Part shown: positions 7,257-38,614 of the stretch, piece after piece | Layout of the letters: each line of letters begins with the position of its first letter | Numbering within the stretch: position 1 is the first letter of the stretch | Assembly: GCA_017442305.1 (NCBI GenBank) | Contig: JAFRZY010000006.1 | Location: forward strand, 1 to 41,537 | DNA length: 41,537 nt | Direction: 5' to 3' | Origin: Bacilli bacterium | Lineage (GTDB): Bacteria > Bacillota_I > Bacilli_A > RF39 > UBA660 | Notes under the pieces: model-generated | Databases searched by the model: none | Told to the model about the DNA's origin: nothing | What the model saw: only the letters and a program-made list of their open reading frames with translations | Translations under genes and position numbers: made by a program

Positions 7257-8894
7257 CTAATTTTCTACAGCTAATTTATATGGTTCATTTATCGTTCCTG
7301 AGCCTTCAAACAGAACATCAGATTTCAGATTAATAACTGGACGAACACCAGAACCATGAGCTAAAACAGACTCAAATAAATCTCCTTCATCACGATAAGC
7401 TGTTCCATATGCATAAATGCCTACTACGTCTGGGGCATTTAAAAAATAGTTTGGGGTTAAAGTCCAAAAACCTTCATCATTACTATTTAAATAAAAACTA
7501 GTATTGCTTGTTCCGGTTCCTCCGGCAAACATAACCTCATCGGCCGTTATTAATCCTACCGGATTAGTAAGCAAACCATTTCCTAATGATTTACTAGTCG
7601 TATATCTATCACTAATATTTGTGCATGTTAATTTAGGTGCTTTTGTTTGAAATCGCTTAGAGAATGCAAAATTTATATACATTTCGCTTGTGCTTGACAC
7701 TTCTCTGTCGTTGCAGAAAATTCCATCTGCAATATATTTTTCATAATCTTCTTTTAAGTTATCATTATACCAATCATCAATGGTTGATTTTATTGTACTA
7801 TCTACTTGCGTTCCAGTTCCATCATCATATGTATATCCTACACGCTTTAAATCACTATAATCGTAATTAAGATTATTATAAAACGAACTACCAACTGTTG
7901 CTGTATGTGCTGTTCCATTTTCTAGTGGAAATGTTCCATCATAGATCATTCTAATCGTTCCATCTCCGTTAATCCTTATGATTCGCCAATACAAAGATTC
8001 TTCTCCCTCTAAACAATCGGTCCAATACGTACCAGATGTCATACAAGCTTCGTAAGTATTATATTTATAATAATTGTAATCCCCCAAAATATCCTCAATA
8101 GATGTTGTATTAGGATAATAGAATTTTGAACTTGGTCCCAACTTTACATAATTAGTCTCGACATCGCCTCGGAAGTAATATGAAGTTCCATAATCGTCTT
8201 GTGCACTATATAAACCATATTCCCCATCTGCTGTTACTTTACTAAAATCTGGTGTTGTACTATATAAATAATTATTTTCTTCAGCATCTGAAAGTATTAA
8301 TGATGCTAAAGTACTACCTTGTGATGTTATATTTTGTCCTACACTTACACTTATCTTACCTGTATATGTTTTATTCATTTCTGAAATCGGTGCATCAGCA
8401 TCAATCCATAATCTTAATTCATATGTCGCTGTATCTTCTGTTGTTGTAGTACTACTTCCTGCTAATGTACCATATAGTAATGTATATGATTCATATGCGC
8501 CATTTATTGTTGGTTCTGTCCCTACATATTCATATAGTTTTTTAGGTGTATTTTCGTTTATTACTGCCTTTATTGCGCTTGCCTTGATTGCTGTACTTTC
8601 TGTGCCAATAGATTCCAAATTTATGTGATAATCTACGCCTGTTGTACAGTTATTTGTTACTGTAAATTCGTATGGAGTAAGTTTCATTCCATCCACATCA
8701 CTTAATGGAAATTGATCTTGTAGTTCAATATCATTTTTCTCACCACTTAATGATATATCTAAACATCCTGTTGATATTACGTTTGGATTTGTTTGTGTTT
8801 TTGTTACTAACCAATAAGCATATGTTACTCCGATTATTACTAGGAGTACTGCTACTATACTAGTTACCGTAATTACTGTCTTTTTATTTTTCAT
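7257..8894 (-). CDS. Phase-variable surface protein, family copy B
   Basis: A 545-aa family member. The start is the ATG at 8894 (MKNKK, after AGGAAAGGG); an in-frame ATG at 8942 is rejected because no other copy has that extension. Residues 6-28 are a SipW-type hydrophobic segment ending TYAYW. Residues 40-185 resemble the TasA/camelysin beta-sandwich, with Cys44 and Cys83. The conserved FRGDVETNYVKLG lies near 241-253, a variable part with EACMTSG...DC follows, and from about 302 (YWRIIRINGDGT) to the end the domain looks like a C-type-lectin/DUF6273-type fold ending RPVINLK. No LPXTG, SLH or other wall anchor is present. It sits directly after rpoC. Its nearest relative here is copy D (IDADAPISE, LASLIL, TTPDF). 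Adhesion or ligand binding is inference. Confidence 0.85.
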   Translation of the reverse strand: MKNKKTVITVTSIVAVLLVIIGVTYAYWLVTKTQTNPNVISTGCLDISLSGEKNDIELQDQFPLSDVDGMKLTPYEFTVTNNCTTGVDYHINLESIGTESTAIKASAIKAVINENTPKKLYEYVGTEPTINGAYESYTLLYGTLAGSSTTTTEDTATYELRLWIDADAPISEMNKTYTGKISVSVGQNITSQGSTLASLILSDAEENNYLYSTTPDFSKVTADGEYGLYSAQDDYGTSYYFRGDVETNYVKLGPSSKFYYPNTTSIEDILGDYNYYKYNTYEACMTSGTYWTDCLEGEESLYWRIIRINGDGTIRMIYDGTFPLENGTAHTATVGSSFYNNLNYDYSDLKRVGYTYDDGTGTQVDSTIKSTIDDWYNDNLKEDYEKYIADGIFCNDREVSSTSEMYINFAFSKRFQTKAPKLTCTNISDRYTTSKSLGNGLLTNPVGLITADEVMFAGGTGTSNTSFYLNSNDEGFWTLTPNYFLNAPDVVGIYAYGTAYRDEGDLFESVLAHGSGVRPVINLKSDVLFEGSGTINEPYKLAVEN

Positions 8895-8958
8895 ATTATA
8901 CTTCCCTTTCCTTCGTAAAATATAGCACAGGTGCATTGTCATATTTTGTTACATTTTA

Positions 8959-17205: not shown

Positions 17206-18930
17206 CTAATCCATCACTATTTCGTATGGTGTATTTGTATCAATACGACCATTACCAGTAAACTTAACGTCTGCTTTTAAGTTAATTACTGGACGTATCA
17301 GATCTGCACCGCCTATCATAGAACCTATTGATCCATCTGAATCAATTAAATACGCCAAATCCAATCTATCTGAATAGTAATATGCAGTCGGTGTAGAAAG
17401 AGCATAATAATCACCACTATATAAATAATATGTATTATTTTTTTGATCAAGTACACTTCCGGCCATTAATGCCTCATCAGCACTTAATAAACCTATAGGT
17501 TTATTAAATAACCCATTCCCCAAATTACCACTTATTGTGTATCTATCACTTTTATTTGGACAAATTAATTTAGGAGTTGCAGAATTCACCCTTTTTGAAG
17601 CACCATAAATCGGATCAACATATGGGCCAGTCTCTGTCCAAGGATCCATATATGGTTCGCTATAACCTATTATCTCACGATCATTACAAAAAATTCCATC
17701 TGCTACATATTTATCATATTTTTCCTCTAAATTAGCGGCATACCATTTTTCTAATTGTTTTTTTGCTTCACTATCTACTTGCACGCCATTATTCTCCCAT
17801 GTATAACCATTGTAGTCAAATACATAGAAGCCATCGCCTATTAACGCTTGGTGAGCAACTCCGTTTGCTACAGCATTATTACCATCATAAACAAGTCGGA
17901 TTGTACCGTCACCATTAATACGCACAATCCGCCAATATATTGGCAACGTTTGAGTCACTGTTTTTGTGTCAAATTGCGGCCTACAATAAATATCTAGAGT
18001 ATGTTCGGTATACTGTTCTTTTAAATATTCAAATTCAGTGCTATTATCGCATTCTTCTTGCGATGTGTAGTATGTTCCATCGCCAGTCGCTATCAATTCA
18101 AACGATGGTTCAAATGTGTAATAATCCCAAGTTTTAATATAATAAGTAACATCCACTTCTTCAGATATTTCCTCTATACCAAATTTGACATAATTATTTG
18201 TTGGAGCTCCTCTAAAATAATATGAAGTTCCCAAATCATCTTGTGCTTTATATAAACCTGCATCACTTTCGGTCGTACCTGTACTAAAATCTGTTACTTT
18301 CTCTATTGAATCTGCTCCTCCATAATTGGAAAGAATGCTATATGCTAGCGTTCCTTCTTTATATGGATTAAATACCCCTTGTCCTACTGTTACACTTATT
18401 TTACTTCTATAGGTTTTATTTTGTTCACTTATTGGTGCATCTTTATCTATCCAAATTCTTAAATCATATGTAACAGTTGCTTCTGCTTCTCCTTTTGAGG
18501 CTAAGGTACCTGAACCTAATTTATTCGATTCGTACGCACCACTTATTGTTGGTTCTTCTGTTCCTCCTGCGGTCAATAATCTTATATCGTTATTTAACGC
18601 TACTTTAATAGCACTCGCTTTTATTGCAGTACTTGAATCTCCAATTGATTCCAAATTTACTTGATAATCTACACTTGTTGTACAGTTATTTGTTACTGTA
18701 AATTCATAAGGAGTTAACTTCATACCATCTTCGTCACTTAATGGAAATTGATCTTGTAGTTCAATATCATTTTTTTCACCACTTAATGATATATCTAAAC
18801 ATCCTGATGAGATTACATTTTGATTAGTTTGAGTCTTAGTTACTAACCAGTATGCATATGTTACTCCAATTATTACTAGGAGTACTGCTACTATACTTGT
18901 TATTGTGATTATAGTCTTTTTATTTTTCAT
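17206..18930 (-). CDS. Phase-variable surface protein, family copy C
   Basis: A 574-aa member with the shared N-terminus (TYAYW, Cys44, PYEFTVTNNC) and AGGAGG before the ATG at 18930. It belongs to the subtype whose first domain ends in NPYKEGTLAYSILSNYGGAD, shared with E and F, followed by AQDDLGTSYYFRGAPTNNYVKFG. The variable middle carries a cysteine pair (TSQEECDN ... DIYCRPQF). The C-terminal domain runs from YWRIVRINGDGTIR to RPVINLKADVKFTG and ends near PYEIVMD. It has no wall-sorting signal, so either the N-terminal segment anchors it or a SipW-type peptidase (not in this window) releases it. It sits where rplL would be expected upstream of rsmC-rpoBC. Confidence 0.85.
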   Translation of the reverse strand: MKNKKTIITITSIVAVLLVIIGVTYAYWLVTKTQTNQNVISSGCLDISLSGEKNDIELQDQFPLSDEDGMKLTPYEFTVTNNCTTSVDYQVNLESIGDSSTAIKASAIKVALNNDIRLLTAGGTEEPTISGAYESNKLGSGTLASKGEAEATVTYDLRIWIDKDAPISEQNKTYRSKISVTVGQGVFNPYKEGTLAYSILSNYGGADSIEKVTDFSTGTTESDAGLYKAQDDLGTSYYFRGAPTNNYVKFGIEEISEEVDVTYYIKTWDYYTFEPSFELIATGDGTYYTSQEECDNSTEFEYLKEQYTEHTLDIYCRPQFDTKTVTQTLPIYWRIVRINGDGTIRLVYDGNNAVANGVAHQALIGDGFYVFDYNGYTWENNGVQVDSEAKKQLEKWYAANLEEKYDKYVADGIFCNDREIIGYSEPYMDPWTETGPYVDPIYGASKRVNSATPKLICPNKSDRYTISGNLGNGLFNKPIGLLSADEALMAGSVLDQKNNTYYLYSGDYYALSTPTAYYYSDRLDLAYLIDSDGSIGSMIGGADLIRPVINLKADVKFTGNGRIDTNTPYEIVMD

Positions 18931-20927: not shown

Positions 20928-20955
20928 AAAAAAACTGTAGAGTTATCTACAGTTT
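20928..20955 (-). terminator. Terminator of surface copy D
   Basis: AAACTGTAGA (20932-20941) pairs with TCTACAGTTT (20946-20955), then T7 on the minus strand. The stem includes the stop codon. Confidence 0.85.
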
Positions 20956-22744
20956 AACCAACTAATTTGTACGGATTTTCTATTGTTCCTTCCCCTTCAA
21001 ATAATACATCAGCCTTAATATTAATTACTGGACGAACTCCGCCCTCTCTCACAACCGATGAGTAACTTGTTGAAATCTCGCCATTGCTAGATACATAATA
21101 CATAAAAAGTCCAGATACAGATGCTTCGCTACTTCCAGAAGTTAAAGGAACTTTATGGTAAGAAGGAGTCATAGTTAAGAAATCGTCATTAATAAATAAA
21201 TAAGCATTAGTTCCTGTACCGGCCATTACAGCTTCATCAGCTGTTACCAAGCCAATTGGATAAGTTAAATATCCATTACCTATTATATCTGTTACAGTAT
21301 ATTTATCATTTTTGGCTGCACACGTTAAAGCAGGATTGGCATTTAATCTATTGTACGCTTTAAAATAAGTAAAATTATTACTAACAGATGGATTAGCTTT
21401 ATCATTGCAGAAAATTGAGTCAGCTATATATTTACCGTATTTCTCTAGCAAACTTTTTTCATACCAAGTATCTACTACACCTTTAATTGTACTATCTGTT
21501 TCAACACCATTTACATCATATGTATATCCTGCATATTTTGCATCATAAATGCTTGAATTATATGCTATATCACCAATTGTTACTGTATGAGAAACTCCAT
21601 TTTCTACAAGTGATGTTCCATCATATATCATACGTATTGTTCCATCTCCATTAATTCGAACAATTCGCCAATATTTTAAATCATATGTCGGTATTAACTT
21701 TACTGTACACGCTTCTTCATCACCAGTTATTGATATACACGATTCTAACGACGCTAATCCTAATGCAACTATTTCTTCTTCCATACCACTTCCTGTATAA
21801 TATACAGTTTCTATATTTCTCGGTTTACAAGATGAATATGCACCACTTCCTAGACCAGCATCTTCACACATTTCTTGTGACTTGAACACAACATCACCGA
21901 ATACACTTAATTCTTCTATACAACTTTCATCTTCACCACAAGTTTCTAAGGACACTTCAGGTGAATATGGTTTCACTTTAGTTTTTCCAAACTCTACATA
22001 ATTATTTTTTATATCTCCCCTAAAGTAATATGAATCACCAAGATCATCTTGAGCTTTATATAAGCCATATTCTCCTTCTTGGGGATCAATAGTAAAATCT
22101 GGTGTTGTTGTATATAAATAATTTTTTTCTTCGGCGTCCTCTAAGACTAATGATGCTAAAGTTTCTCCTTGTGTATTTATATTTTGTCCAACACTTACGC
22201 TTATTTTCCCTGTAAATGTTTTGTTTTGTTCACTTATTGGAGCATCCTTATCTATCCACATTCTTAAATTAAACTTTTTTTCATCTTCTGTTGTCGCATC
22301 ACTTTTTCCAGCTAATGTTCCATAAGCTATTGTAAATGCTTGATAAGCCCCTTCTATTGTCGTTTCTGCAACTACATATTCATATAATTTCTTAGGAATA
22401 TTATCGTTTATTACTGCTTTTAATGTAGTTGATTTTAATGCAGACGTTTCATTTCCTATACTTTCTAGATTTATATGATAGTCAACAGTTGTTGTACAGT
22501 TATTTGTTACTGTAAATTCATACGGAACTAATTTCATTCCGTCTTCATCGCTCATCGGAAACTGGTTTGTTAAAGTTATATCATTTTTCTCACCACTTAT
22601 CGAAATATCTAAACACCCAGAACCTATTATGTTTTGTCCTGTTTGCGTTTTGGTTACTAACCAATATGCATATGTTACTCCGATTATTACTAGGAGTACT
22701 GCTACTATACTTATTATTGTAATTACTGTTTTTTTGTTCTTCAT
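20954..22744 (-). CDS. Phase-variable surface protein, family copy D
   Basis: A 596-aa member, start at the ATG at 22744. It is closest to copy B: both have the KKLYEYV, LASLxLxDAEExNYLYTTTPDF and FRGDxxxNYVxxG forms rather than the NPYKEGTLAY form of C, E and F. The variable middle is longer and cysteine-rich (ETCGEDESCIEEL, SQEMCEDAG, AYSSCKPRN, LESCISITGDEEACTV), suggesting tandem small disulfide modules. The C-terminal lectin-like domain runs from YWRIVRINGDGT to RPVINIKADVLFEG. It is placed between spoIVA and HU, which are neighbours in Bacillus. Role inferred: displayed surface protein under on/off control. Confidence 0.85.
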   Translation of the reverse strand: MKNKKTVITIISIVAVLLVIIGVTYAYWLVTKTQTGQNIIGSGCLDISISGEKNDITLTNQFPMSDEDGMKLVPYEFTVTNNCTTTVDYHINLESIGNETSALKSTTLKAVINDNIPKKLYEYVVAETTIEGAYQAFTIAYGTLAGKSDATTEDEKKFNLRMWIDKDAPISEQNKTFTGKISVSVGQNINTQGETLASLVLEDAEEKNYLYTTTPDFTIDPQEGEYGLYKAQDDLGDSYYFRGDIKNNYVEFGKTKVKPYSPEVSLETCGEDESCIEELSVFGDVVFKSQEMCEDAGLGSGAYSSCKPRNIETVYYTGSGMEEEIVALGLASLESCISITGDEEACTVKLIPTYDLKYWRIVRINGDGTIRMIYDGTSLVENGVSHTVTIGDIAYNSSIYDAKYAGYTYDVNGVETDSTIKGVVDTWYEKSLLEKYGKYIADSIFCNDKANPSVSNNFTYFKAYNRLNANPALTCAAKNDKYTVTDIIGNGYLTYPIGLVTADEAVMAGTGTNAYLFINDDFLTMTPSYHKVPLTSGSSEASVSGLFMYYVSSNGEISTSYSSVVREGGVRPVINIKADVLFEGEGTIENPYKLVG

Positions 22745-24473: not shown

Positions 24474-24501
24474 AAAAAAAGATGGATAATATTCCATCTT
24501 T
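24474..24501 (-). terminator. Terminator of surface copy E (duplicate of the spoVIF terminator)
   Basis: AAAGATGGA (24478-24486) pairs with TCCATCTTT (24493-24501), then T7 on the minus strand. The core GATGGATAATATTCCATC recurs exactly at 26633-26650 behind spoVIF. Confidence 0.85.
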
Positions 24502-26365
24502 AATTTAAAACTATTTCATAAGGCGAGTTTGTATCTATTCTACCATCTCCAGTAAATTTAACATCTGCTTTCAGATTGATAACTGGACGCGCCCCGACCA
24601 CGCCATAGGGGGAGGGTTCGTATTGGACGGAGCCGTTTTTGTCAATACTCCAGACCCACGCAACGTTTTTATTGAAAAAATCCGGAGTAGAAGTCCAATA
24701 CTCGCCTCCCGAATATAAGTAATGTGTATTATTGAAAGATGGTGCTCCTGCCATAATTGCTTCATCGGCTGTTAATAAACCAATTGGTCGCACATTTCCT
24801 TCTGCATCTGTTAACTTCCCATTCCCCAATTCTGTACTTACTGTATATCTATCATCCTTATTTGTACATGTTAATACTGGTGCTTTGTTTGCGCTTAATC
24901 TATAGTATGGAGCATAATATGTTCTACCAGATTCATCTGTTGTGACTTCACCTCTATCGTTACAAAAAATTGAATCTGCTATATATTTGCCATATGTTGT
25001 GTTTAGATGTTTATCATACCATGCATCTACTACTCCTTTGACTGTACTATTTGTTTCTGTTCCATCTACATCATATGTATATCCTGCATATTTTACATAG
25101 TCATAGTTTGTAGTATATGGTGTCATACCAATTACTGCTGTGTGTGCTACACCATTTACTACTTTTTCTGTTCCATCATAAATTAATCTGATAGATCCGT
25201 CTCCATTGATTCGGACTATTCTCCAGTACATTGGGGTTCCTGCTTTTACTTCAACCGTTTTTTCGCTTAATACTGTTTCATCATAAAAAGTTATTGTTGT
25301 ATCTGCGGCATATGTTCCAAATTGGACATAGTTGTTGGTTGGTGCTCCTCTAAAGTAATAACTAGTTCCCAAGTCATCTTGTGCCTTATAAAGTCCTGCA
25401 TCACTAGAGGCTGTTACTACACTAAATGCATTGCTTCCTTTTATAGTTTTTGCTGGTATATAATCTCCACTTGTTCCAAAATCAGTTATTTCATATAAAT
25501 AAGAACTATTATATGTTGAACTTTCGTTTTTTAATGTATATTTTCCACACACATTAGTTCCATTTCGACATTCTGTTAATGTTGCTTGTGTTAGTGTCCC
25601 TGATAATGTATAATATCCGGTTTCTTTATCAAATGTATATGATGTTCCGTACCAATAGTTGTTTGATGTTCCTACATTATTTGTTGTTGCTGTTACTGCA
25701 CTTGCATCTCCTTCTGTCCATTCTGCGCTTAAGCTTGCTATTGCATCTGCTCCGCCATAATTTGAAAGAATATCATAAGCTAATGTTCCTTCCTTATATG
25801 GATTTGTTATTCCTTGTCCTACTGTTACACTTATCTTACTTTGGAATGTTTTATTTTGTTCACTTATTGGAGCATTTGCATCTATCCAGATTCGTAATTT
25901 ATACGTTACTGATGCGTTTTCTGTATCCTTTGCAGCTAGTGTTCCATATAAAATCATATTTGATTCGTATGCTCCTGAAACTGTTGGTTCTGTATTTCCA
26001 CCAGCAGTTAGTAGTTTTATTTCATCGTTTAACGCAACTTTAATAGCGCTGGCTTTGATTGCGTTAGTTGAATCCCCAATACTTTCAAGATTAACTTGAT
26101 AATCTACTGAGGTATTACAATTATTTGTTACTGTAAATTCGTATGGTGTTAGTTTCATTCCATCTTCATCGCTTAACGGAAATTGATCTTGTAGTTCAAT
26201 ATCATTCTTCTCACCAGTTAACGAGATGTCTAAACAACCGGAACTAATTAAGTTATGGCCTGTTTGTGTTTTTGTTAATAGCCAATAAGCATATGTTACT
26301 CCAATTATTACTAGGAGTACTGCTACTATGCTAGTTATTGTGATTACTATTTTTTTATTCTTCAT
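24500..26365 (-). CDS. Phase-variable surface protein, family copy E
   Basis: A 621-aa member, start at the ATG at 26365. It has the shared N-terminus, the NPYKEGTLAYDILSNYGGAD subtype join, and then an extra module of about 80 residues found also in copy F (YGTSYTFDKETGYYTLSG ... ECRNGTNVCGKYTL ... YEITDFG). The middle between FRGAPTNNYVQFG and YWRIVRINGDGS lacks the cysteine-pair module and instead has a charged beta-rich stretch (VLSEKTVEVKAGTPM). The lectin-like domain ends GARPVINLKADVKFTG. The codons for the loop before that (about 24590-24670) are strikingly GC-rich compared with the rest. Its promoter is the only one with an optimal 17-nt spacer, so this copy may be the one switched on. 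Confidence 0.85.
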   Translation of the reverse strand: MKNKKIVITITSIVAVLLVIIGVTYAYWLLTKTQTGHNLISSGCLDISLTGEKNDIELQDQFPLSDEDGMKLTPYEFTVTNNCNTSVDYQVNLESIGDSTNAIKASAIKVALNDEIKLLTAGGNTEPTVSGAYESNMILYGTLAAKDTENASVTYKLRIWIDANAPISEQNKTFQSKISVTVGQGITNPYKEGTLAYDILSNYGGADAIASLSAEWTEGDASAVTATTNNVGTSNNYWYGTSYTFDKETGYYTLSGTLTQATLTECRNGTNVCGKYTLKNESSTYNSSYLYEITDFGTSGDYIPAKTIKGSNAFSVVTASSDAGLYKAQDDLGTSYYFRGAPTNNYVQFGTYAADTTITFYDETVLSEKTVEVKAGTPMYWRIVRINGDGSIRLIYDGTEKVVNGVAHTAVIGMTPYTTNYDYVKYAGYTYDVDGTETNSTVKGVVDAWYDKHLNTTYGKYIADSIFCNDRGEVTTDESGRTYYAPYYRLSANKAPVLTCTNKDDRYTVSTELGNGKLTDAEGNVRPIGLLTADEAIMAGAPSFNNTHYLYSGGEYWTSTPDFFNKNVAWVWSIDKNGSVQYEPSPYGVVGARPVINLKADVKFTGDGRIDTNSPYEIVLN

Positions 26366-30137: not shown

Positions 30138-30434
30138 ATGTATAACAAAAACAATTTTCCACCTAGCATAGATCCCCAGCTTTATTCAATTAGCGCAGTT
30201 ATTATTGGCGCAGCAATTGTAGATGATTTTACAGCTTATGAACAAAATGCCATTGGTAATTGGTTAATGTTATTAGCCCAATATATTATTACCCATGCTG
30301 CTCAACAAAACTTATTAGATATGCGATTTAATAATTCTAAAAATCAAACGAATGTTAATAATGATATAAATTATTTATTAGCCGCTATAAATAAAATATC
30401 AGCTGAACTAGAAAAAATAAAGAATGAAAATTAA
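30138..30434 (+). CDS. Unknown 98-aa protein
   Basis: Not recognised. The ribosome binding site is strong (AGGAGGG, 7 nt before the ATG). The N-terminal half is moderately hydrophobic (SISAVIIGAAIVDDFTAYEQNAIGNWLMLLAQYIITHAA), possibly an amphipathic helical hairpin rather than a full membrane span; the C-terminal third is a likely coiled coil (INYLLAAINKISAELEKIKNEN) after an Asn-rich linker. Small size and helical hairpin plus coiled coil suggest an oligomeric scaffold or regulatory protein. It is convergent with ynbB and shares a bidirectional terminator with it. Confidence 0.65.
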   Translation: MYNKNNFPPSIDPQLYSISAVIIGAAIVDDFTAYEQNAIGNWLMLLAQYIITHAAQQNLLDMRFNNSKNQTNVNNDINYLLAAINKISAELEKIKNEN

Positions 30435-30445
30435 TTCATTCTTTT
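30420..30445. terminator. Bidirectional terminator between the 98-aa gene and ynbB
   Basis: 10-bp stem AAAGAATGAA (30420-30429) with TTCATTCTTT (30436-30445), followed by a T run to the right and preceded by an A run on the left. Confidence 0.8.
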
Positions 30446-31657
30446 AATTGCTTCGATTAAAGCAAGTTTTCCATATTCGTAAGTCATACCACCTTGTTGA
30501 TAAGCGATAAACGGTTTTCTTAATGGGCCATCACAAGATATTTCGATACTTGAGCCTTGTGTAAATGAACCTGATGCCATAATTATTTTATCACTATATC
30601 CTGGCATTTCAGTTGGTTCTGGTATAGCATTAGAATCTATCGCTGAACCCAATTGAATTCCTTGACAATATTTAATTAGTTTTTCACGATCATTAAAAAC
30701 AATGTTTTGTACTATATCTGCTCTAACATCATCATATTTAGGCTCTACGGTATAGCCTAAAGTTTCTAAAATTTTACTTGTTAAAACTGCTACTTTTAAA
30801 CTGCTTGCTACTACAGAAGGCGCCATATAAAGACCTTGTAATAAAGATTTATTGATACCAAGACTTGGACCTACTTCTTTCCCTTCACCAGGAAGAGTAA
30901 GTCTTTCTCCTGCTAATTCTACTAAATCTCTACGACCAGCTATATATGCCCCATTAGGAGCTATACCACCACCTAAGTTTTTTATAAGTGACCCAACAAT
31001 GATATCAGCACCTACTTCTAGTGGTGTTTGCTTTTCAACAAATTCACAATAACAATTATCTACCATAATTATTACATTTTTATCTATATTTTTAATAAAG
31101 GAAATAACTTTTTCTAATTTATCAATTGTTAAACTTTTACGAGTTGAATATCCTTTTGATCTTTGAATCTCTATAACTTTAACTTTGTTATTTTGCAAAA
31201 ATTCTTTAATGCTATTATAATCAAAATCATTATCAATTAAATCTATTTCTGAATATTGAACTCCAAAAGATTTTAATGAGCTTTTATTATCTTTAATACC
31301 AATTACTTCATGTAAAGTATCATATGGAGTACCTGTAATTGAAAGTAACAAATCATTAGGTCTAAGTAAAGAGAAAAAGGCAACTGTAAGAGCATGAGAA
31401 CCAGATATGAATTGATTTCTTACTAGTGCATCTTCAGCCCCTAACACTTCAGCATAAACCTTTTCAATAGCATCTCTTCCTATATCACCATAACCATAAC
31501 CAGTTGTTGCATTGAAATGTATTTCCGATATATTATTATTTTTAAACGCCGTTAACACTTTTTTACTATTTTCAAAACACAGTTCATCAATCTCTTTATA
31601 TATTTCTGTTAATTCTCTTTCTTCTTTTAATATTAATTCATATATATCATTTTTCAT
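30431..31657 (-). CDS. Methionine gamma-lyase-family / aluminium-resistance protein (YnbB-like)
   Basis: A 408-aa PLP enzyme of the YnbB group (fold type I, Cys/Met metabolism related). FNATTGYGYGDIGRDAIEKVYAE, NQFISGSHAL, VDNCYCEF and GSLIKNLGGGIAPNGAYIAG are characteristic; the lysine in SLIKNLGGG binds PLP. The exact reaction in this family is not settled; names vary between aluminium resistance and methionine gamma-lyase. The start is the ATG at 31657 with GGATGA upstream, overlapping the end of the SDR gene by 11 nt; the ATG at 31666 is less well placed. It is last in a four-gene operon. Confidence 0.88.
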   Translation of the reverse strand: MKNDIYELILKEERELTEIYKEIDELCFENSKKVLTAFKNNNISEIHFNATTGYGYGDIGRDAIEKVYAEVLGAEDALVRNQFISGSHALTVAFFSLLRPNDLLLSITGTPYDTLHEVIGIKDNKSSLKSFGVQYSEIDLIDNDFDYNSIKEFLQNNKVKVIEIQRSKGYSTRKSLTIDKLEKVISFIKNIDKNVIIMVDNCYCEFVEKQTPLEVGADIIVGSLIKNLGGGIAPNGAYIAGRRDLVELAGERLTLPGEGKEVGPSLGINKSLLQGLYMAPSVVASSLKVAVLTSKILETLGYTVEPKYDDVRADIVQNIVFNDREKLIKYCQGIQLGSAIDSNAIPEPTEMPGYSDKIIMASGSFTQGSSIEISCDGPLRKPFIAYQQGGMTYEYGKLALIEAIKRMN

Positions 31658-32342
31658 TGCTATCATCCATTCTAATTATTTCACCACTTTTTATTTCTTT
31701 ATTTTGTAGTATATCAATTATTTTGTTAACAACTTCTTCTTTAGTTAACAATTTTTTTTGATTAATTCTTTTTAGTTCACTTTCTAAATATATTGGCGAC
31801 ATTTCTAAAACACTATCTGTTGCAATCCAGTTTGGTGCTAAAGCACAAATTTTTATATCTGGATATCTTAACGCTAAATTCTTTGTTAGATTTTCTATTC
31901 CTGCTTTAGATGCATCATAATCCATACTTATCGGATTATAAGTTGTAGATGCATTTGTTGATGAAATATTAATTATTACCCCGTTTTTCATAATACTTAA
32001 TGCTTTTTTACATACAAGAAATGTTCCCACTAAATTTACTTCTAAAACTTTCATAAATTCCGCTTTAGTTTTTTCGGTAATGTCTTTATCCATACTTAAA
32101 GCTGCACAGTTAATAACATAATCTATATTTTGATATTCTTTTTTGATATATCCAAATAATTCAGTAATTTCATCTTCTTTAGTTAAATCGCATTTACAAG
32201 CATCAATATATACTAAAGGAATTATGTTAGTATTATAAGTCCCAATTACTTTAGCACCTTCTAGAGTCAACTTACTAGCTAAAGAAAGACCAATACCACT
32301 TGATGCGCCAATTATTAATACTCTTTTGTCTAAAAAATTCAT
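31647..32342 (-). CDS. Short-chain dehydrogenase/reductase
   Basis: A 231-aa classical SDR. The NAD(P) site is IIGASSGIGLSLA near the N-terminus; INCAALS replaces the usual NNAG; the catalytic residues are Ser in NISSTNAS and Tyr-Lys in YDASKAG. Arg or Thr following the second strand (GTYNTN) does not decide the cofactor. The substrate is unknown, though FabG-like and sugar-modifying SDRs look alike. The start is the ATG at 32342 (MNFLDKRV), 4 nt after the upstream TGA; a GTG at 32354 overlaps the previous gene. It is third in the U32 operon. Confidence 0.88.
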   Translation of the reverse strand: MNFLDKRVLIIGASSGIGLSLASKLTLEGAKVIGTYNTNIIPLVYIDACKCDLTKEDEITELFGYIKKEYQNIDYVINCAALSMDKDITEKTKAEFMKVLEVNLVGTFLVCKKALSIMKNGVIINISSTNASTTYNPISMDYDASKAGIENLTKNLALRYPDIKICALAPNWIATDSVLEMSPIYLESELKRINQKKLLTKEEVVNKIIDILQNKEIKSGEIIRMDDSNEK

Positions 32343-32346
32343 ATTA

Positions 32347-34275
32347 TCACTCACAATCTACATTAATTTCAAATACTCGAGGTTTTTTAGTCATTTTTAA
32401 ATATTGTTCTCTACTTATTTCTTTAATCTTTTTATTTTTAAAATTATATACATAATAAATACAAGAATTAGTATTATTTCTTATAAATTCATCTTCATTA
32501 TCTGAAATAAAGAAATGAATTTTTTTATCACTATTATTAGTCGCAGAAGATTTTACTTCAATATATTTTTCACTACCATCTTCATTAAAGCTCAAAATAT
32601 CATATCCCTTATTAGGATCTGTTTTAAAATAAGGGATAATTTTTTCAACTAATTCCGGATAATTTTTTAAACGCAATATTTCTTGCTTATGCGCAAATTC
32701 TTCACCGGTAGCACCACTTTCTTGTTGATTAACATATTGCTTTAAATAATCCTTTTTAGCGCTCTTCTTTTTCTTATTATTTACCTTAGTTTCATGATTT
32801 GTAAAATTCTCAAGCTTAGTAATAATCGTATCAGACGTTTTTTTCTTTTTTTCTAATTTATCAAAATTATCTATATTGACTTTTAGAATATATTCTCTAT
32901 TAGGGGTAAAATCTACATCAAAATATTTTAAAGAAAGTTCCCCTCTTTTATACATACAGTACGCTAGTTCAAGCAAGATATCGTCCAAAGTCGTTTGTGG
33001 ATTATCATCGTGTTCTTTATTGTACTTTAGGATTTCCTCTTGTTTTTTTATTTCTTCTTCAATATTAAAACATAATTTATACTTTTCTTTATTTTGATAA
33101 TTAATTTCATAAACTTCTTTCATTCGCATATTTTGCATTAATTTTAATAATTCTACGGAATTAATTTCTTGACAACTAACAATAAATAGTTTTATTAATC
33201 TTTCTAAAGAACAAAAATCATATTTGACACTACCAACTTTAGCTTGACGTCGACTTGTTATTTGGGAAGTGCTTTCCTTAAAAATATTTGTAAGCATTCC
33301 TTTTCCTGCATGTTCTACAACAGTTAATTGTTTAAGTTCATCTTTAGTAAAATCTTTGATGCTAAATAGGCCTTTTTTCTTTACGCTTTCAAATAATTTA
33401 TCATAATATCGATTTAAATCTAAATAAGCATCATAGTAATCAAAGTGATATTTTATTGTATAAAAATATCTTAATAATGTTTTCTTTTCATTTTTATCTA
33501 ATTTATATGGCGCATACTTTTCAAATTTTGTATTAATAAGTAGGGCTGTCGCAAAAAAATCACAAAAAATCTCTAGCATAGTTTCTTTACTATCTACATA
33601 ATTAATGTTAATAAACTCTTTAACTAGTGCATAAAAAGAATAAGGTATATCAACCGTACTCTTAGTAATTTCACAAGCCATTATATGACCTAATTCATGA
33701 AAAAACACAGTTCTAGGAAAAATGTTTTCGTTTTGCATTTGAAAACAATTTAAAAAATAACGATTAATTTTAGTATTTATTTCAGGTAATACATATGAAT
33801 TAAATACAATATTTTGTTTAGCATGAATAAACGTATATATGTTTTCAAATAAATTTTCTTCTTTAAAATACGGAACTCTTTCTAAAACAAGCGCTATAGC
33901 ATCACGAATTTCCTCTTCAGTAATATGACTATTATTGCTTTCAACAAGTTCTCCTTCATAAATTTTCAATAATTCTTTAGCCATTTTTTTAAAATCTCGA
34001 ATATCTCTTAAACCACTAAAATAATAGGAAGTATACGCTATAGGCGATTTATTAGGATTAAAAATGTGATAATCTTTTCTGTATGCATGATCAATTTCTT
34101 CATTCACAGCATATCTTCCTAACTTTTCACCAAAAGATTTTACAATTCGTCTTTTTTTATATACATCATTTTCTATCTTAAAATACTCTAAAATATATTT
34201 TAAGGTATTAATAATTTCAGAGTACGTTGATTCAAAATATAAATCGCCTATATATTCATACACTTTTTCTTCCAC
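32347..34275 (-). CDS. HExxH peptidase-like protein fused to a DUF3883 nuclease-like domain
   Basis: A 642-aa multidomain protein. Residues 190-245 hold an ImmA/IrrE-like zinc site: FFHELGH (His193, Glu194, His197) and EIFCDFFA (Glu235 as third ligand). The middle is helical. Residues 455-515 form a Lys-rich linker. Residues 516-642 match DUF3883, a PD-(D/E)xK-type fold seen in defence and DNA-processing proteins: GATGEEFAHKQEI, KGYDILSF (Asp559), KYIEVKSS (Glu573, Lys575) and FISDNEDEF. The start is a GTG at 34275 with TAGGTGA upstream, 4 nt after the U32 stop, so it is coupled to that gene. I know of no named protein with this architecture. A stress- or phage-triggered protease plus nuclease is one possible role. 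Confidence 0.7.
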   Translation of the reverse strand: MEEKVYEYIGDLYFESTYSEIINTLKYILEYFKIENDVYKKRRIVKSFGEKLGRYAVNEEIDHAYRKDYHIFNPNKSPIAYTSYYFSGLRDIRDFKKMAKELLKIYEGELVESNNSHITEEEIRDAIALVLERVPYFKEENLFENIYTFIHAKQNIVFNSYVLPEINTKINRYFLNCFQMQNENIFPRTVFFHELGHIMACEITKSTVDIPYSFYALVKEFININYVDSKETMLEIFCDFFATALLINTKFEKYAPYKLDKNEKKTLLRYFYTIKYHFDYYDAYLDLNRYYDKLFESVKKKGLFSIKDFTKDELKQLTVVEHAGKGMLTNIFKESTSQITSRRQAKVGSVKYDFCSLERLIKLFIVSCQEINSVELLKLMQNMRMKEVYEINYQNKEKYKLCFNIEEEIKKQEEILKYNKEHDDNPQTTLDDILLELAYCMYKRGELSLKYFDVDFTPNREYILKVNIDNFDKLEKKKKTSDTIITKLENFTNHETKVNNKKKKSAKKDYLKQYVNQQESGATGEEFAHKQEILRLKNYPELVEKIIPYFKTDPNKGYDILSFNEDGSEKYIEVKSSATNNSDKKIHFFISDNEDEFIRNNTNSCIYYVYNFKNKKIKEISREQYLKMTKKPRVFEINVDCE

Positions 34276-34279
34276 GATA

Positions 34280-36493
34280 TCACCTACTACACTTTTTTAA
34301 AATTTCTGCAATATCACTTGCTACTTCATCATATAAATCAATTCTAAAATTTGTAATTCCTAGGTCCTTATAATAATCTAGTTTATTTAATAAATCAATG
34401 TTCTTAGAATGTAAAAGTTTACTTATACAAGTATTATTTATTATTGGATATAATTCTTTGTTATCCCCTTTAATAGCATATTTCTTTTGATTATGACAAA
34501 CAGAACAAGCTTTATCAGTATTAACAAATTTGTTTAATAAACAATATTTCATAACCATTAATTCTGGTCGACCATATACTAATAATTCTAAATTAGATGA
34601 ATTGTTAATATCAATTAAATCATCATCTTTTATTTCTACAGATAAACCAATTTTGTTGACACTCAAATTTTTTAATAATTCTATTGATTCTTTATTAGTA
34701 ACATTTAAGTATATATCGCTTACTACATTATTAGTTTTAGAGTATTTGTAAACTGCTCCTATATCACTTGCTAATATATTTTCATTATTCAATTCCATTA
34801 ATTTGTTACTTACTCGATTAGTTTTAAAGAAAACATTTGGACCTTTATATTTTTGGTATAATTTATAATCTTCAGTATAAATAATAACATCTTTATCTAA
34901 TAAATATTGTAATTGAGATTCATTTCTAACTAAGAAACTAAAATGATTAGTTATTAATTGACTATTTCCTGAAAATTCATTGTTTTTTACAATTACTTCC
35001 CTTTTACTATTTTCTCTTTTATGAATTAATTCTTTGGTTAGTTGTTGCCTTAAATTATTTATTTCCTTTATTGGAATAAATACATCACTATCCAACTCTA
35101 TATTAGCTATATTTAATATAAATGGTGTATTACCTAATTTATTTAATTTTTCTATTACATCTGTTTTAGTAGTTGGTCTGTTAATAGACTTCTCTAAGAC
35201 TATTGATTCTTTAACTATAGTATTTATATTATCACTTATCTTCACTATTAATGGCTTACCGACTTTTGCAATAACCGTAAAATCAACCTTTATTTTTTTT
35301 AAATTATAATTATTTAATTCTTTAATTAAATGACTATCCAAAGTTTTAAGAACCTTCCCTTTTTTATCTAAATCCACTTTGTTGTCTAAATATATAATTT
35401 CGCCTATTTCTCCTTTGCTAACCAACAAATCTTTTCGGTTGTAAATAAAATTGGCAATCATCCCTTCACCATTTGGAAGTCTTATTCCATCCCCTTGATG
35501 TATTGTATTAGTAAGCTTAATTTTTATTTTGGGCAAACACTCTAAAACAGTACCCAACTCAATTCCTTGATGATTAGGAGTTTTAGGATTTATTATATCT
35601 TTATTATTTTCGTTATTAATATATCCTTTAGTAAACTCCCGATTATATAAAACGGCTAAGTTATCTAGTTCTTCTTTTGTTAAAATCATTTCTTCATTAT
35701 TATAATACTTGTCAATAAGTTTACGATAAATAGCTGTAACGTATCCAACATACTCAGGGCTTTTCATTCTTCCTTCAATTTTTAAAGAATTCACATTGGA
35801 ATCAAGAATAGTACGCAAATTTTCAGTACTATTTAATTCTTTTAAACTAAGTAAATATTTTTCTTTTAAATCAATAACTTGATCATTTTCTAAAAGTTCG
35901 TAAGGCAACCTACAAAGGCCTGCGCATTCTCCACGATTTCCACTACGATTTAAAGCAAGTGAAGAAAACAAACATTCTCCAGAATATGATACACATAAAG
36001 CACCATGAATAAATACTTCTTTTTCAATATCGACATCTAAAGAATTTATTTCAGCAATAGATAGTTCACGCGCCATTACACAACGTGTAACACCCAAAGA
36101 TTTAAAAAATTCTAAACCTTCTTTATTATGATTATGAGCTTGAGTAGAGGCATGAATCTCTAAATTAGGATAGGTTTCTCTTACCAGCTTAATTAAACCA
36201 ATGTCTTGCATAATTAAGGCATCAACACCAAACTCATGAATTTGTTTTATATATTCCATAACTTCTGCTAATTCATTATTATAAACCAGGGTGTTAACAG
36301 TAATGTACACCTTTACACCATACAAATGACAATATTTAATTGCTTCTTCTATTTCATTTAAATCAAAATTACTTGCAAATTTACGAGCACCATAATTTTT
36401 ACCAGATAAATAAATGGCATCAGCACCATTATGTACTGCACTTTTAAGAGACTCCATATCACCAGCAGGTGACAACAACTCTACTTTTTTCAT
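34280..36493 (-). CDS. U32-family protein (RlhA-like, 23S rRNA hydroxylation)
   Basis: A 737-aa U32 family member. VELLSPAGDMESLKSAVHNGADAIYL is the hallmark N-terminus of the TIM-barrel-like U32 domain; the conserved cysteines are in HGALCVSYSGECLFSS and NRGECAGLCRLPYEL, which in this family hold an iron-sulfur cluster. The long C-terminal part fits the DUF3656-containing type, related to RlhA (C2501 hydroxylation of 23S rRNA) and to the tRNA hydroxylation proteins TrhP. Despite the name, RNA modification rather than proteolysis is the best-supported role. Another cysteine set (KACSVCHNQKKY) lies near the C-terminus. First gene of the four-gene operon, directly upstream of copy F's 3' neighbour region. 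Confidence 0.9.
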   Translation of the reverse strand: MKKVELLSPAGDMESLKSAVHNGADAIYLSGKNYGARKFASNFDLNEIEEAIKYCHLYGVKVYITVNTLVYNNELAEVMEYIKQIHEFGVDALIMQDIGLIKLVRETYPNLEIHASTQAHNHNKEGLEFFKSLGVTRCVMARELSIAEINSLDVDIEKEVFIHGALCVSYSGECLFSSLALNRSGNRGECAGLCRLPYELLENDQVIDLKEKYLLSLKELNSTENLRTILDSNVNSLKIEGRMKSPEYVGYVTAIYRKLIDKYYNNEEMILTKEELDNLAVLYNREFTKGYINNENNKDIINPKTPNHQGIELGTVLECLPKIKIKLTNTIHQGDGIRLPNGEGMIANFIYNRKDLLVSKGEIGEIIYLDNKVDLDKKGKVLKTLDSHLIKELNNYNLKKIKVDFTVIAKVGKPLIVKISDNINTIVKESIVLEKSINRPTTKTDVIEKLNKLGNTPFILNIANIELDSDVFIPIKEINNLRQQLTKELIHKRENSKREVIVKNNEFSGNSQLITNHFSFLVRNESQLQYLLDKDVIIYTEDYKLYQKYKGPNVFFKTNRVSNKLMELNNENILASDIGAVYKYSKTNNVVSDIYLNVTNKESIELLKNLSVNKIGLSVEIKDDDLIDINNSSNLELLVYGRPELMVMKYCLLNKFVNTDKACSVCHNQKKYAIKGDNKELYPIINNTCISKLLHSKNIDLLNKLDYYKDLGITNFRIDLYDEVASDIAEILKKCSR

Positions 36494-36524: not shown

Positions 36525-36549
36525 AAAAAAAGAGAGTTAAACTCTCTTT
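36525..36549 (-). terminator. Terminator of surface copy F
   Basis: AAAGAGAGT (36529-36537) pairs with ACTCTCTTT (36541-36549), 3-nt loop, then T run on the minus strand. It overlaps the stop codon. Confidence 0.85.
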
Positions 36550-38614
36550 AGTTAACAACTATTTCATATGGACTATCAATTGTTCCTTTGCCAGTAAACT
36601 TAACATCCGCTTTTAAATTAATTACGGGACGAACCCCCAATTCCTGAGAGTCACCTTCAGAATAAATACCAAAACCACCGCCAAACCAATTTACATCAAA
36701 AGTATAAAACGGTGATGATGCAGAATTAAGATACATGTTAGAAGAAAAAAATTCTGATGAAACAATACCTCCCGCAAAAAGGATTTCTTTTGTTGTTAAT
36801 AAACCTATAGGCTTATTTAAAAGTCCATTACCAAAGTTTTCACTCATAGTATATTTATTATTTTTTGATGAACATTTGAATGATTTCATAGCAGCATCAA
36901 CAGTAACATAATCACTACCATATCCAACAGAATTATCATAACAGAAAATGTTATCCGTTATATATTTTCCATATTCTTTTTCTAGAGTATTGCTGTACCA
37001 ATCTTCCAAAGTTGTTTTTATAACACTATCTTGTTTATTACCATTAGCATCTCTACTTGCGTACCAATACGAAGATACAGCACCATAAAAAGAATTGGTA
37101 ATAGCCACATTATGACCAACTCCGTTTTCAAAAGCTTTTATACCATCATATACTAAACGAATCGTTCCATCGCCATTAATACGCACTATTCGCCAATACA
37201 TATCAGAAGACTCTATCTGTTTTGAAGTTGTACCATCTAGATATTCCCAACAACTAGTAGAATAACCCTTACTTGCAATCGCATCTTCACAGGCTTCTAA
37301 TGTATCAAAATGACCGGAATCATATTGCCATTCTTCATAAGAAGAACATTGACCAGATGGATAACCAATTCTTTCCAAATCTGCTTCGCATTCGGCTAAA
37401 GATTCAAAACCAGATGCTCCAGTACAATTATCGCCATTTGCATCGCAAGCATCATACCCATAATAAATTTCAGGCCATTCATAAGAATATGTATATTTGC
37501 TAACATAACTCGAATATTCATCAGTCATTGCTTCTGTATGATTACCAAATTTCACATAATTATTTGTTGGTGCTCCTCTAAAGTAATAGCTCGTACCTAA
37601 ATCATCTTCGGCTTTATATAGGGATTTTTCATTTGGAGAAGTTATGGAATCTGCAAGTCTTATATAACCTACCTCATTAACAACAGAATCGATACTTTCC
37701 GCTTCCCGATAATCATAATTGCCAATCAATCTTCCCCAATTTACAATTTCATAAATATAACCTCCACTATAATTAGCATCATTACTATTAAGAGTGTATT
37801 TGCCGCATACCTTTGTTCCGTTTCGACATTCATTAGGATTAGCTTGTATTATTTCTCCGCTTAATGTATATTTTCCGGTTTCTTTATCATATTTAAATTC
37901 AGTACCATAATATACATTGGAATTAATGAAATCAACTGTACCAACACCTATTACTCTATGATCAAATTCGGGATTATCCATTTCAGTAATGGCACTTAAT
38001 CCTCCGTAATTTGAAAGTATACTATAAGCTAATGTGCCTTCTTTATATGGATTTATTATTCCTTGGCCTATTGTTACGCTAATTTTTGCTCTATATGTTT
38101 TGTTTTGCTCACTTATTGGGGCATTTTCATCTATCCATATCCTTAAATTATAAGTCTTGGTCGCTTCAGTTTCACCTTTTGAAGCTAATGTACCAAATAG
38201 TATTCTATTAGATTCATATGCTCCACTTATTGTTGGTTCTACGTTACCTCCATCATTTAGTAATTTTATTTCATCATTTAAAGCTACTTTAATAGCACTT
38301 GCTTTGATTGTATTAGACGAATCTCCGATTGATTCCAAATTTACTTGATAATCTACACTTGTACTACAGTTATTTGTTACTGTAAACTCGTAGGGCGTTA
38401 ACTTCATTCCATCTTCATCACTTAGCGGAAATTGATTAGTTAATTCAATATCATTTTTCTCACCAGTTAATGATATATCTAAACATCCTGATGAGATTAC
38501 ATTTTGATTAGTTTGTGTTTTTGTTACTAACCAGTATGCATATGTTACTCCGATTATTACTAGGAGTACTGCTACTATACTTGTTACTGTGATTACTATC
38601 TTTTTATTTCTCAT
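36548..38614 (-). CDS. Phase-variable surface protein, family copy F (longest)
   Basis: A 688-aa member, start at the ATG at 38614 (MRNKK). It has the shared N-terminus, the NPYKEGTLAYSILSNYGG join, and the extra 80-residue module shared with E (DKETGKYTLSG, ECRNGTKVCGKYTL, YIYEIVNWG). After FRGAPTNNYVKFG the variable region is the longest in the family and contains repeated cysteine-pair units: YDACDANGDNC, FESLAECEADLERIG...QC and FDTLEACEDAIASKG...SCW. The C-terminal domain runs from YWRIVRINGDGTIR to RPVINLKADVKFTG. It lies between the U32 operon and an ORF6N remnant. Its promoter has the longest G tract and an 18-nt spacer, so weaker expression than copy E is predicted. Confidence 0.85.
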   Translation of the reverse strand: MRNKKIVITVTSIVAVLLVIIGVTYAYWLVTKTQTNQNVISSGCLDISLTGEKNDIELTNQFPLSDEDGMKLTPYEFTVTNNCSTSVDYQVNLESIGDSSNTIKASAIKVALNDEIKLLNDGGNVEPTISGAYESNRILFGTLASKGETEATKTYNLRIWIDENAPISEQNKTYRAKISVTIGQGIINPYKEGTLAYSILSNYGGLSAITEMDNPEFDHRVIGVGTVDFINSNVYYGTEFKYDKETGKYTLSGEIIQANPNECRNGTKVCGKYTLNSNDANYSGGYIYEIVNWGRLIGNYDYREAESIDSVVNEVGYIRLADSITSPNEKSLYKAEDDLGTSYYFRGAPTNNYVKFGNHTEAMTDEYSSYVSKYTYSYEWPEIYYGYDACDANGDNCTGASGFESLAECEADLERIGYPSGQCSSYEEWQYDSGHFDTLEACEDAIASKGYSTSCWEYLDGTTSKQIESSDMYWRIVRINGDGTIRLVYDGIKAFENGVGHNVAITNSFYGAVSSYWYASRDANGNKQDSVIKTTLEDWYSNTLEKEYGKYITDNIFCYDNSVGYGSDYVTVDAAMKSFKCSSKNNKYTMSENFGNGLLNKPIGLLTTKEILFAGGIVSSEFFSSNMYLNSASSPFYTFDVNWFGGGFGIYSEGDSQELGVRPVINLKADVKFTGKGTIDSPYEIVVN

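Follow-up and report, generated by a model that had tools for sequence, protein, structure and literature searches.

A zincin-like domain and a predicted NOV_C nuclease domain on one chain in a Bacilli bacterium: a candidate defence or stress effector

Results

A two-domain gene between a U32 gene and an SDR pair

The window (the whole stretch of DNA analysed, 41,537 nucleotides of contig JAFRZY010000006.1) carries on its minus strand an intact open reading frame of 642 codons that is uninterrupted throughout its length. Reading from a GTG start at 34275, it is preceded at a distance of four bases by an RBS-like AGGTGA (34285-34280), which overlaps the stop codon of the upstream gene. A reading made earlier from the sequence alone had described a fusion of an ImmA/IrrE-like zinc peptidase with a DUF3883 domain. 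The two-domain frame is confirmed, with both sets of active-site residues complete (HELGH plus E235, and E525/D559/E573/K575). The parts of the gene and its immediate neighbours are as follows.

32347..34275, minus strand: whole fusion gene, 642 aa, GTG start, AGGTGA at 34280-34285
33946..34275, minus strand: N-terminal helical region, aa 1-110; helices in the AF2 model at modest confidence (pLDDT about 40-83); aligns with relatives L007 and L011
33496..33948, minus strand: zincin-like domain, about aa 110-260, by homology to L007, L011 and L015 and to the degenerate L012 and L013
33685..33699, minus strand: HELGH zinc site, aa 193-197, kept in L007, L011 and L015
33550..33573, minus strand: EIFCDFFA, aa 235-242, with the likely third zinc ligand, E235, at 38 residues past the second histidine
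32836..33495, minus strand: middle region, aa 261-480, without a Pfam, PADLOC or PHROG match; low-confidence model
32749..32850, minus strand: lysine-rich linker, aa 476-509, probably flexible judging by its sequence, the absence of secondary structure and a pLDDT that is low where the linker begins
32350..32748, minus strand: NOV_C (DUF3883) domain, aa 510-642, predicted restriction-fold nuclease; Pfam match at aa 554-616
32701..32703, minus strand: E525, conserved acidic residue in the first nuclease helix (alignment)
32599..32601, minus strand: D559, first catalytic acid of the D-ExK site (alignment)
32551..32559, minus strand: E573-V574-K575, the ExK of the D-ExK site (alignment)
34280..36493, minus strand: upstream U32 family gene (PF01136 and DUF3656), 4-nt gap; linkage not conserved
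30431..32342, minus strand: downstream pair of SDR (ATG at 32342) and Met_gamma_lyase genes, kept by relatives that lack the fusion gene

The SDR gene was listed (31647-32354) with a GTG start at 32354 that would overlap the fusion gene; the ATG at 32342, just past the fusion-gene stop, is the likelier start.

The surroundings of the fusion gene are an operon-like series of housekeeping genes and not a defence island. It follows the U32 gene on the same strand after a gap of 4 nt, with no terminator between them, and the sequence-only reading had called it coupled to a U32 RNA-modification gene. A functional coupling is not upheld by the comparison with relatives. Four of them (L080, L081, L084 and L085) have the SDR and Met_gamma_lyase genes side by side and lack the fusion gene, and the U32 homologues of relatives are located elsewhere and have other neighbours. 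Because the SDR pair is conserved without the fusion gene and U32 lies elsewhere, the fusion gene is best described as inserted between the U32 gene and the SDR pair; its linkage to U32 is incidental and local.

Five dispersed paralogues, all on the minus strand and between core genes, also occur in the window (7257-8942, 17206-18930, 20954-22744, 24500-26365 and 36548-38614). A nearly identical signal anchor (MKNKKxVITITSIVAVLLVIIGVTYAYWL) makes up each N-terminus and RPVIN(L/I)K is conserved at the C-terminus, with variable middles in between; the five are 37-83% identical in pieces and have no Pfam match, and they could be a variable surface-protein family.

The C-terminal domain resembles PD-(D/E)XK nucleases

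The sole Pfam match of the fusion protein is to PF13020 (NOV_C, the former DUF3883) at aa 554-616 (E=7e-11), with a score of 42.5 bits that compares with a curated cut-off of 22.1. Every one of the 19 rows in an alignment of the fusion protein with 18 relatives has D559, V574, K575 and E594; at E525, G557 and E573, conservation is at least 90%. The claim that a complete D-ExK site lies within a DUF3883 frame therefore stands, E525, D559, E573 and K575 being the residue set of PD-(D/E)XK nucleases.

The model of this domain is confident (pLDDT 85) and has the order alpha-beta-beta-alpha-beta-beta. Its best PDB matches are weak and include many PD-(D/E)XK nucleases, among them the SPARDA component 9qcc, Hjc, I-Ssp6803I, HincII, AvaII and EcoRV. 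Because none of the matches reaches E<=0.001 and the unrelated Rep15 is among the top ranks, we treat the fold matches as support and not as proof. DUF3883 has been described as a novel restriction endonuclease domain in a restriction-modification operon (PMC3710099). From the conserved residues, we infer that the NOV_C domain is a nuclease of the PD-(D/E)XK type, and DNA cleavage is predicted.

Run on the window, PADLOC matches its candidates PD-T4-1 and PDC-S36 to aa 480-640 of the fusion protein. The likeness is confined to this NOV_C-like C-terminal region, whereas the N-terminal 480 aa are unmatched. Other NOV_C proteins carry the same E...D...ExK arrangement, but the partner here is a zincin and not a helicase, EVE, DUF3427 or any other domain that has been reported or that we saw.

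The N-terminal domain is a probable distant ImmA/IrrE-like zincin

ImmA/IrrE-type peptidases are known as switches, as in the PprI-DdrO and CapP-CapH pairs. The fusion protein shares with such metallopeptidases (Peptidase_M78, COG2856) an HExxH site followed by E-x-x-(A/C)-(D/E)-x-F-(A/S). From composition alone, HExxH would be expected 0.02 times, and HExxH with a suitably spaced E..xDxFA about 8e-6 times. Residues H193, E194, H197 and E235 are conserved in three diverged relatives (L007, L011 and L015), which read EVFADCFA, EVYADSFS and ELFCESFA at the third-ligand motif. The fusion protein has EIFCDFFA, with C for A, and was counted as carrying both HExxH and the downstream-ligand pattern of M78, E-x-x-A-(N/D)-x-F-A.

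The claim of an ImmA/IrrE signature holds as far as HELGH and EIFCDFFA are concerned, but family membership does not follow. The fusion protein has no match to Pfam Peptidase_M78 (PF06114) at E<1, nor is there one anywhere in the host genome. The distance from the second histidine to the glutamate is 38 residues, and 36-38 among the four intact members including the window protein, whereas in the M78 proteins of relatives it is mostly 15-24, with one of 39, such that a spacing of 38 is not typical of the family. An adjacent XRE repressor is also absent from the window. No Pfam, NCBIfam or PADLOC family fits the zincin domain or its relatives well, although relative L015 weakly matches PADLOC capP (E=0.045) and a PHROG metallo-protease (E=0.013).

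Profile-profile comparison gives M78 a probability of 61-87% across four alignments and two runs. When four zincin families are compared, M78 is best with three of the four alignments and is equalled by M48 (74%) with the fourth; M3 and M41 score below M78, and shuffled and reversed controls give about 0%. Sequence searches of the PDB returned nothing meaningful. The AF2 model of aa 1-480 was built from three sequences and has a pLDDT of 46, and the fold search gave no significant match at that quality. Since M78 is closest by profile but Pfam gives no match, we term the domain a distant ImmA/IrrE-like zincin and not a member of the family. The domain falls into a rare, unmodelled subfamily, to which M78 stands nearest by profile.

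Relatives of the zincin domain often lie beside defence genes

Five homologues of the zincin domain were found. The HELGH-type site is intact in L007 (27% identical to the fusion protein over 239 aa), in L011, which is on the same contig as the RUG14222 locus L016, and in L015 from Sporobacter termitidis; HELGH is lost in L012 and L013. Two further profile matches were spurious: L014, which falls in a thymidine phosphorylase region on reading the locus, and L127, which falls in a TrkH-like region.

Three of the five relatives are beside defence genes. The gene of L007 is arranged tail to tail with a complete JetABCD (Wadjet) operon 216 bp away. That of L015 comes after a tyrosine recombinase; the island there also contains an AIPR protein (MzaE/AbiU-like), a type II methyltransferase (MTase_II), an AbiLi-like ATPase and, about 7 kb from the zincin, a NOV_C protein on a chain of its own. 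In L013 the gene shares 11 bp with an Mrr-nSTAND3 gene that matches PDC-S73, and a LigD-like gene follows. A fourth relative, L012, is positioned after Ku and LigD genes, and L011 adjoins an XRE regulator. With five loci and no control, this association of the subfamily with defence is suggestive, not conclusive.

On the N-terminal side of their dead zincin domains, L012 and L013 share the pattern GxGxIDFKFYKNxKExVxIExK, and L012 matches PHROG 30194 in the same region (E=6e-12). By its motif, we read this region as nuclease-like. Relatives lacking the catalytic residues of both domains would count against the sequence-only reading, as would a match to a known family with another role. Zinc-site loss affects L012 and L013, while L007, L011 and L015 keep the site, and no known family with another role was matched. 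Because the zinc site is lost in L012 and L013, the domain in some relatives works, if at all, without proteolysis.

Several other features of these loci were seen in passing. The Sporobacter termitidis island (L015:1-16288) also encodes two Vsr-like proteins, and the methyltransferase in it is a cytosine methyltransferase. In two genera (L087:3301-9242 and L088:4579-12325), a nuclease-like protein with a dead zincin and a shorter related gene are next to NHEJ genes (Ku/LigD and LigD, respectively); L088 has an Mrr-nSTAND3 gene as well, and the two loci are a possible repair or defence cluster. An interrupted zincin-domain remnant (HGIGH...EFFAHCFA) lies beside a serine recombinase gene at L018:1495-1758.

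The full fusion is found in one genome

The host, a gut-type bacterium, is represented by a 657-kb MAG that is 65% complete and belongs to the same GTDB family as the MAG of uncultured Erysipelotrichaceae bacterium RUG14222. Searches for the same domain architecture recovered the full zincin-NOV_C fusion from the host genome alone. A whole-protein search of 386 genomes of the same family gave NOV_C-only or zincin-only matches, and a search with the zincin profile through 385 genomes of the order, 395 of the class and 344 of the phylum (overlapping draws) gave no other zincin-NOV_C reading frame. A scan of 84,980 species with a zincin alignment yielded L016, on the same contig as L011, and one other locus. 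Neither the whole protein nor the zincin domain, used as query, found a zincin relative in plasmids, phages or viral contigs; the phage search gave one NOV_C match and plasmids gave zero matches. As the fusion comes from a single genome, its architecture has no support from conservation. The gene is rare and patchily distributed, and apparently acquired.

Discussion

A candidate stand-alone effector

Both parts of the protein resemble known kinds, and neither their combination nor the zincin subfamily was found described in the databases and open-access papers searched. These papers yielded no description of a zincin (IrrE)-DUF3883 fusion or of a fusion between a protease and a restriction enzyme. 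Because relatives of the zincin domain are mostly beside known anti-phage or anti-plasmid genes, the product is probably a defence or stress effector. The sequence-only reading had proposed an undescribed effector that senses damage or infection; an accessory effector role gains indirect support from the absence of the gene from sampled relatives and from the three relatives in or beside defence loci, while the sensing is a prediction. We consider the chances about even that this is an acquired gene whose product acts by itself as an effector of defence or stress, with the zincin-like domain sensing a signal for, or gating, a DNA-cutting domain.

Under this proposal, the C-terminal NOV_C domain would be the toxic, executing part, and the N-terminal zincin-like domain would sense an infection- or damage-related signal and gate the nuclease. 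It might do so by cutting a partner or the lysine-rich flexible linker (aa 476-509). Alternatively, it could hold the nuclease inactive, like the ImmA-type antitoxins of RosmerTA. We infer the nuclease and peptidase activities alike, together with the gating, its trigger and any phage phenotype. The peptidases PprI and CapP cut repressors once single-stranded DNA has activated them (PMC10904395), and the fusion may put a RosmerTA- or CapP-like principle on one chain.

A more ambitious form of the proposal, a protease-gated nuclease on one chain, strikes us as rather unlikely. It supposes that members of an undescribed zincin subfamily turn up repeatedly in defence loci and that fusion to a restriction-type nuclease has happened more than once, namely to a C-terminal NOV_C domain here and, with a dead zincin, to an N-terminal nuclease-like region in L012 and L013. 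DNA cutting would then be turned on during infection or DNA damage when either the linker or a repressor-like partner was cleaved in a metal-dependent way.

Alternative explanations

Proteolysis may not be needed, given the loss of the zinc site in two relatives, and the protein could be a solitary restriction-like nuclease whose zincin-like domain serves only as a scaffold or for target recognition. L012 and L013 fit such a role in that they keep the fold-like region without HELGH and fuse it to another nuclease-like region, and NOV_C is found with many different partner domains (EVE and DUF3427). However, the four intact members, the window protein included, keep H, E, H and the third-ligand glutamate despite identities of 20-27%, and we argue from this that the metal site has been retained. 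On balance, such a role without proteolysis seems unlikely.

A toxin-antitoxin pair on one chain is less probable again. An ImmA-like antitoxin domain would keep the attached nuclease neutralized, and the toxin would be freed once the zincin part was lost or inactivated. In RosmerTA, ImmA domains are confirmed antitoxins and the toxins are highly variable (PMC10440598); as in RosmerTA (the RmrT toxin with the ImmA-domain RmrA antitoxin), an ImmA-like domain is here linked to a putative toxic effector, and the stand-alone zincins L007, L011 and L015 adjoin other systems. The fusion differs from RosmerTA in being one chain, in its NOV_C-type nuclease and in having no HTH, and its toxin-antitoxin role is only putative. 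Moreover, the window gene has neither an XRE partner nor a separate toxin gene beside it, its neighbours being U32 and SDR, and Pfam does not place the domain in M78.

A chance or decaying fusion, or an artefact of assembly or binning, would account for an architecture seen once in a fragmentary MAG, but appears very unlikely for an uninterrupted 642-codon reading frame on a 128-kb contig, with both sites intact, a composition uniform across its parts, and gene composition and codon usage similar to those of its neighbours. Least probable of all is an enzyme of nucleic-acid housekeeping whose function is linked to the U32 gene, because the close spacing, the ribosome-binding site within the U32 stop and the absence of a terminator are set against relatives that commonly have U32 without the fusion gene and with other neighbours.

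Significance

Since Pfam, NCBIfam and PADLOC all lack a model of the zincin subfamily, current defence finders miss it. If the proposal of a stand-alone effector is true, the zinc domain and the DNA-cutting domain would combine sensor and executioner on one chain.
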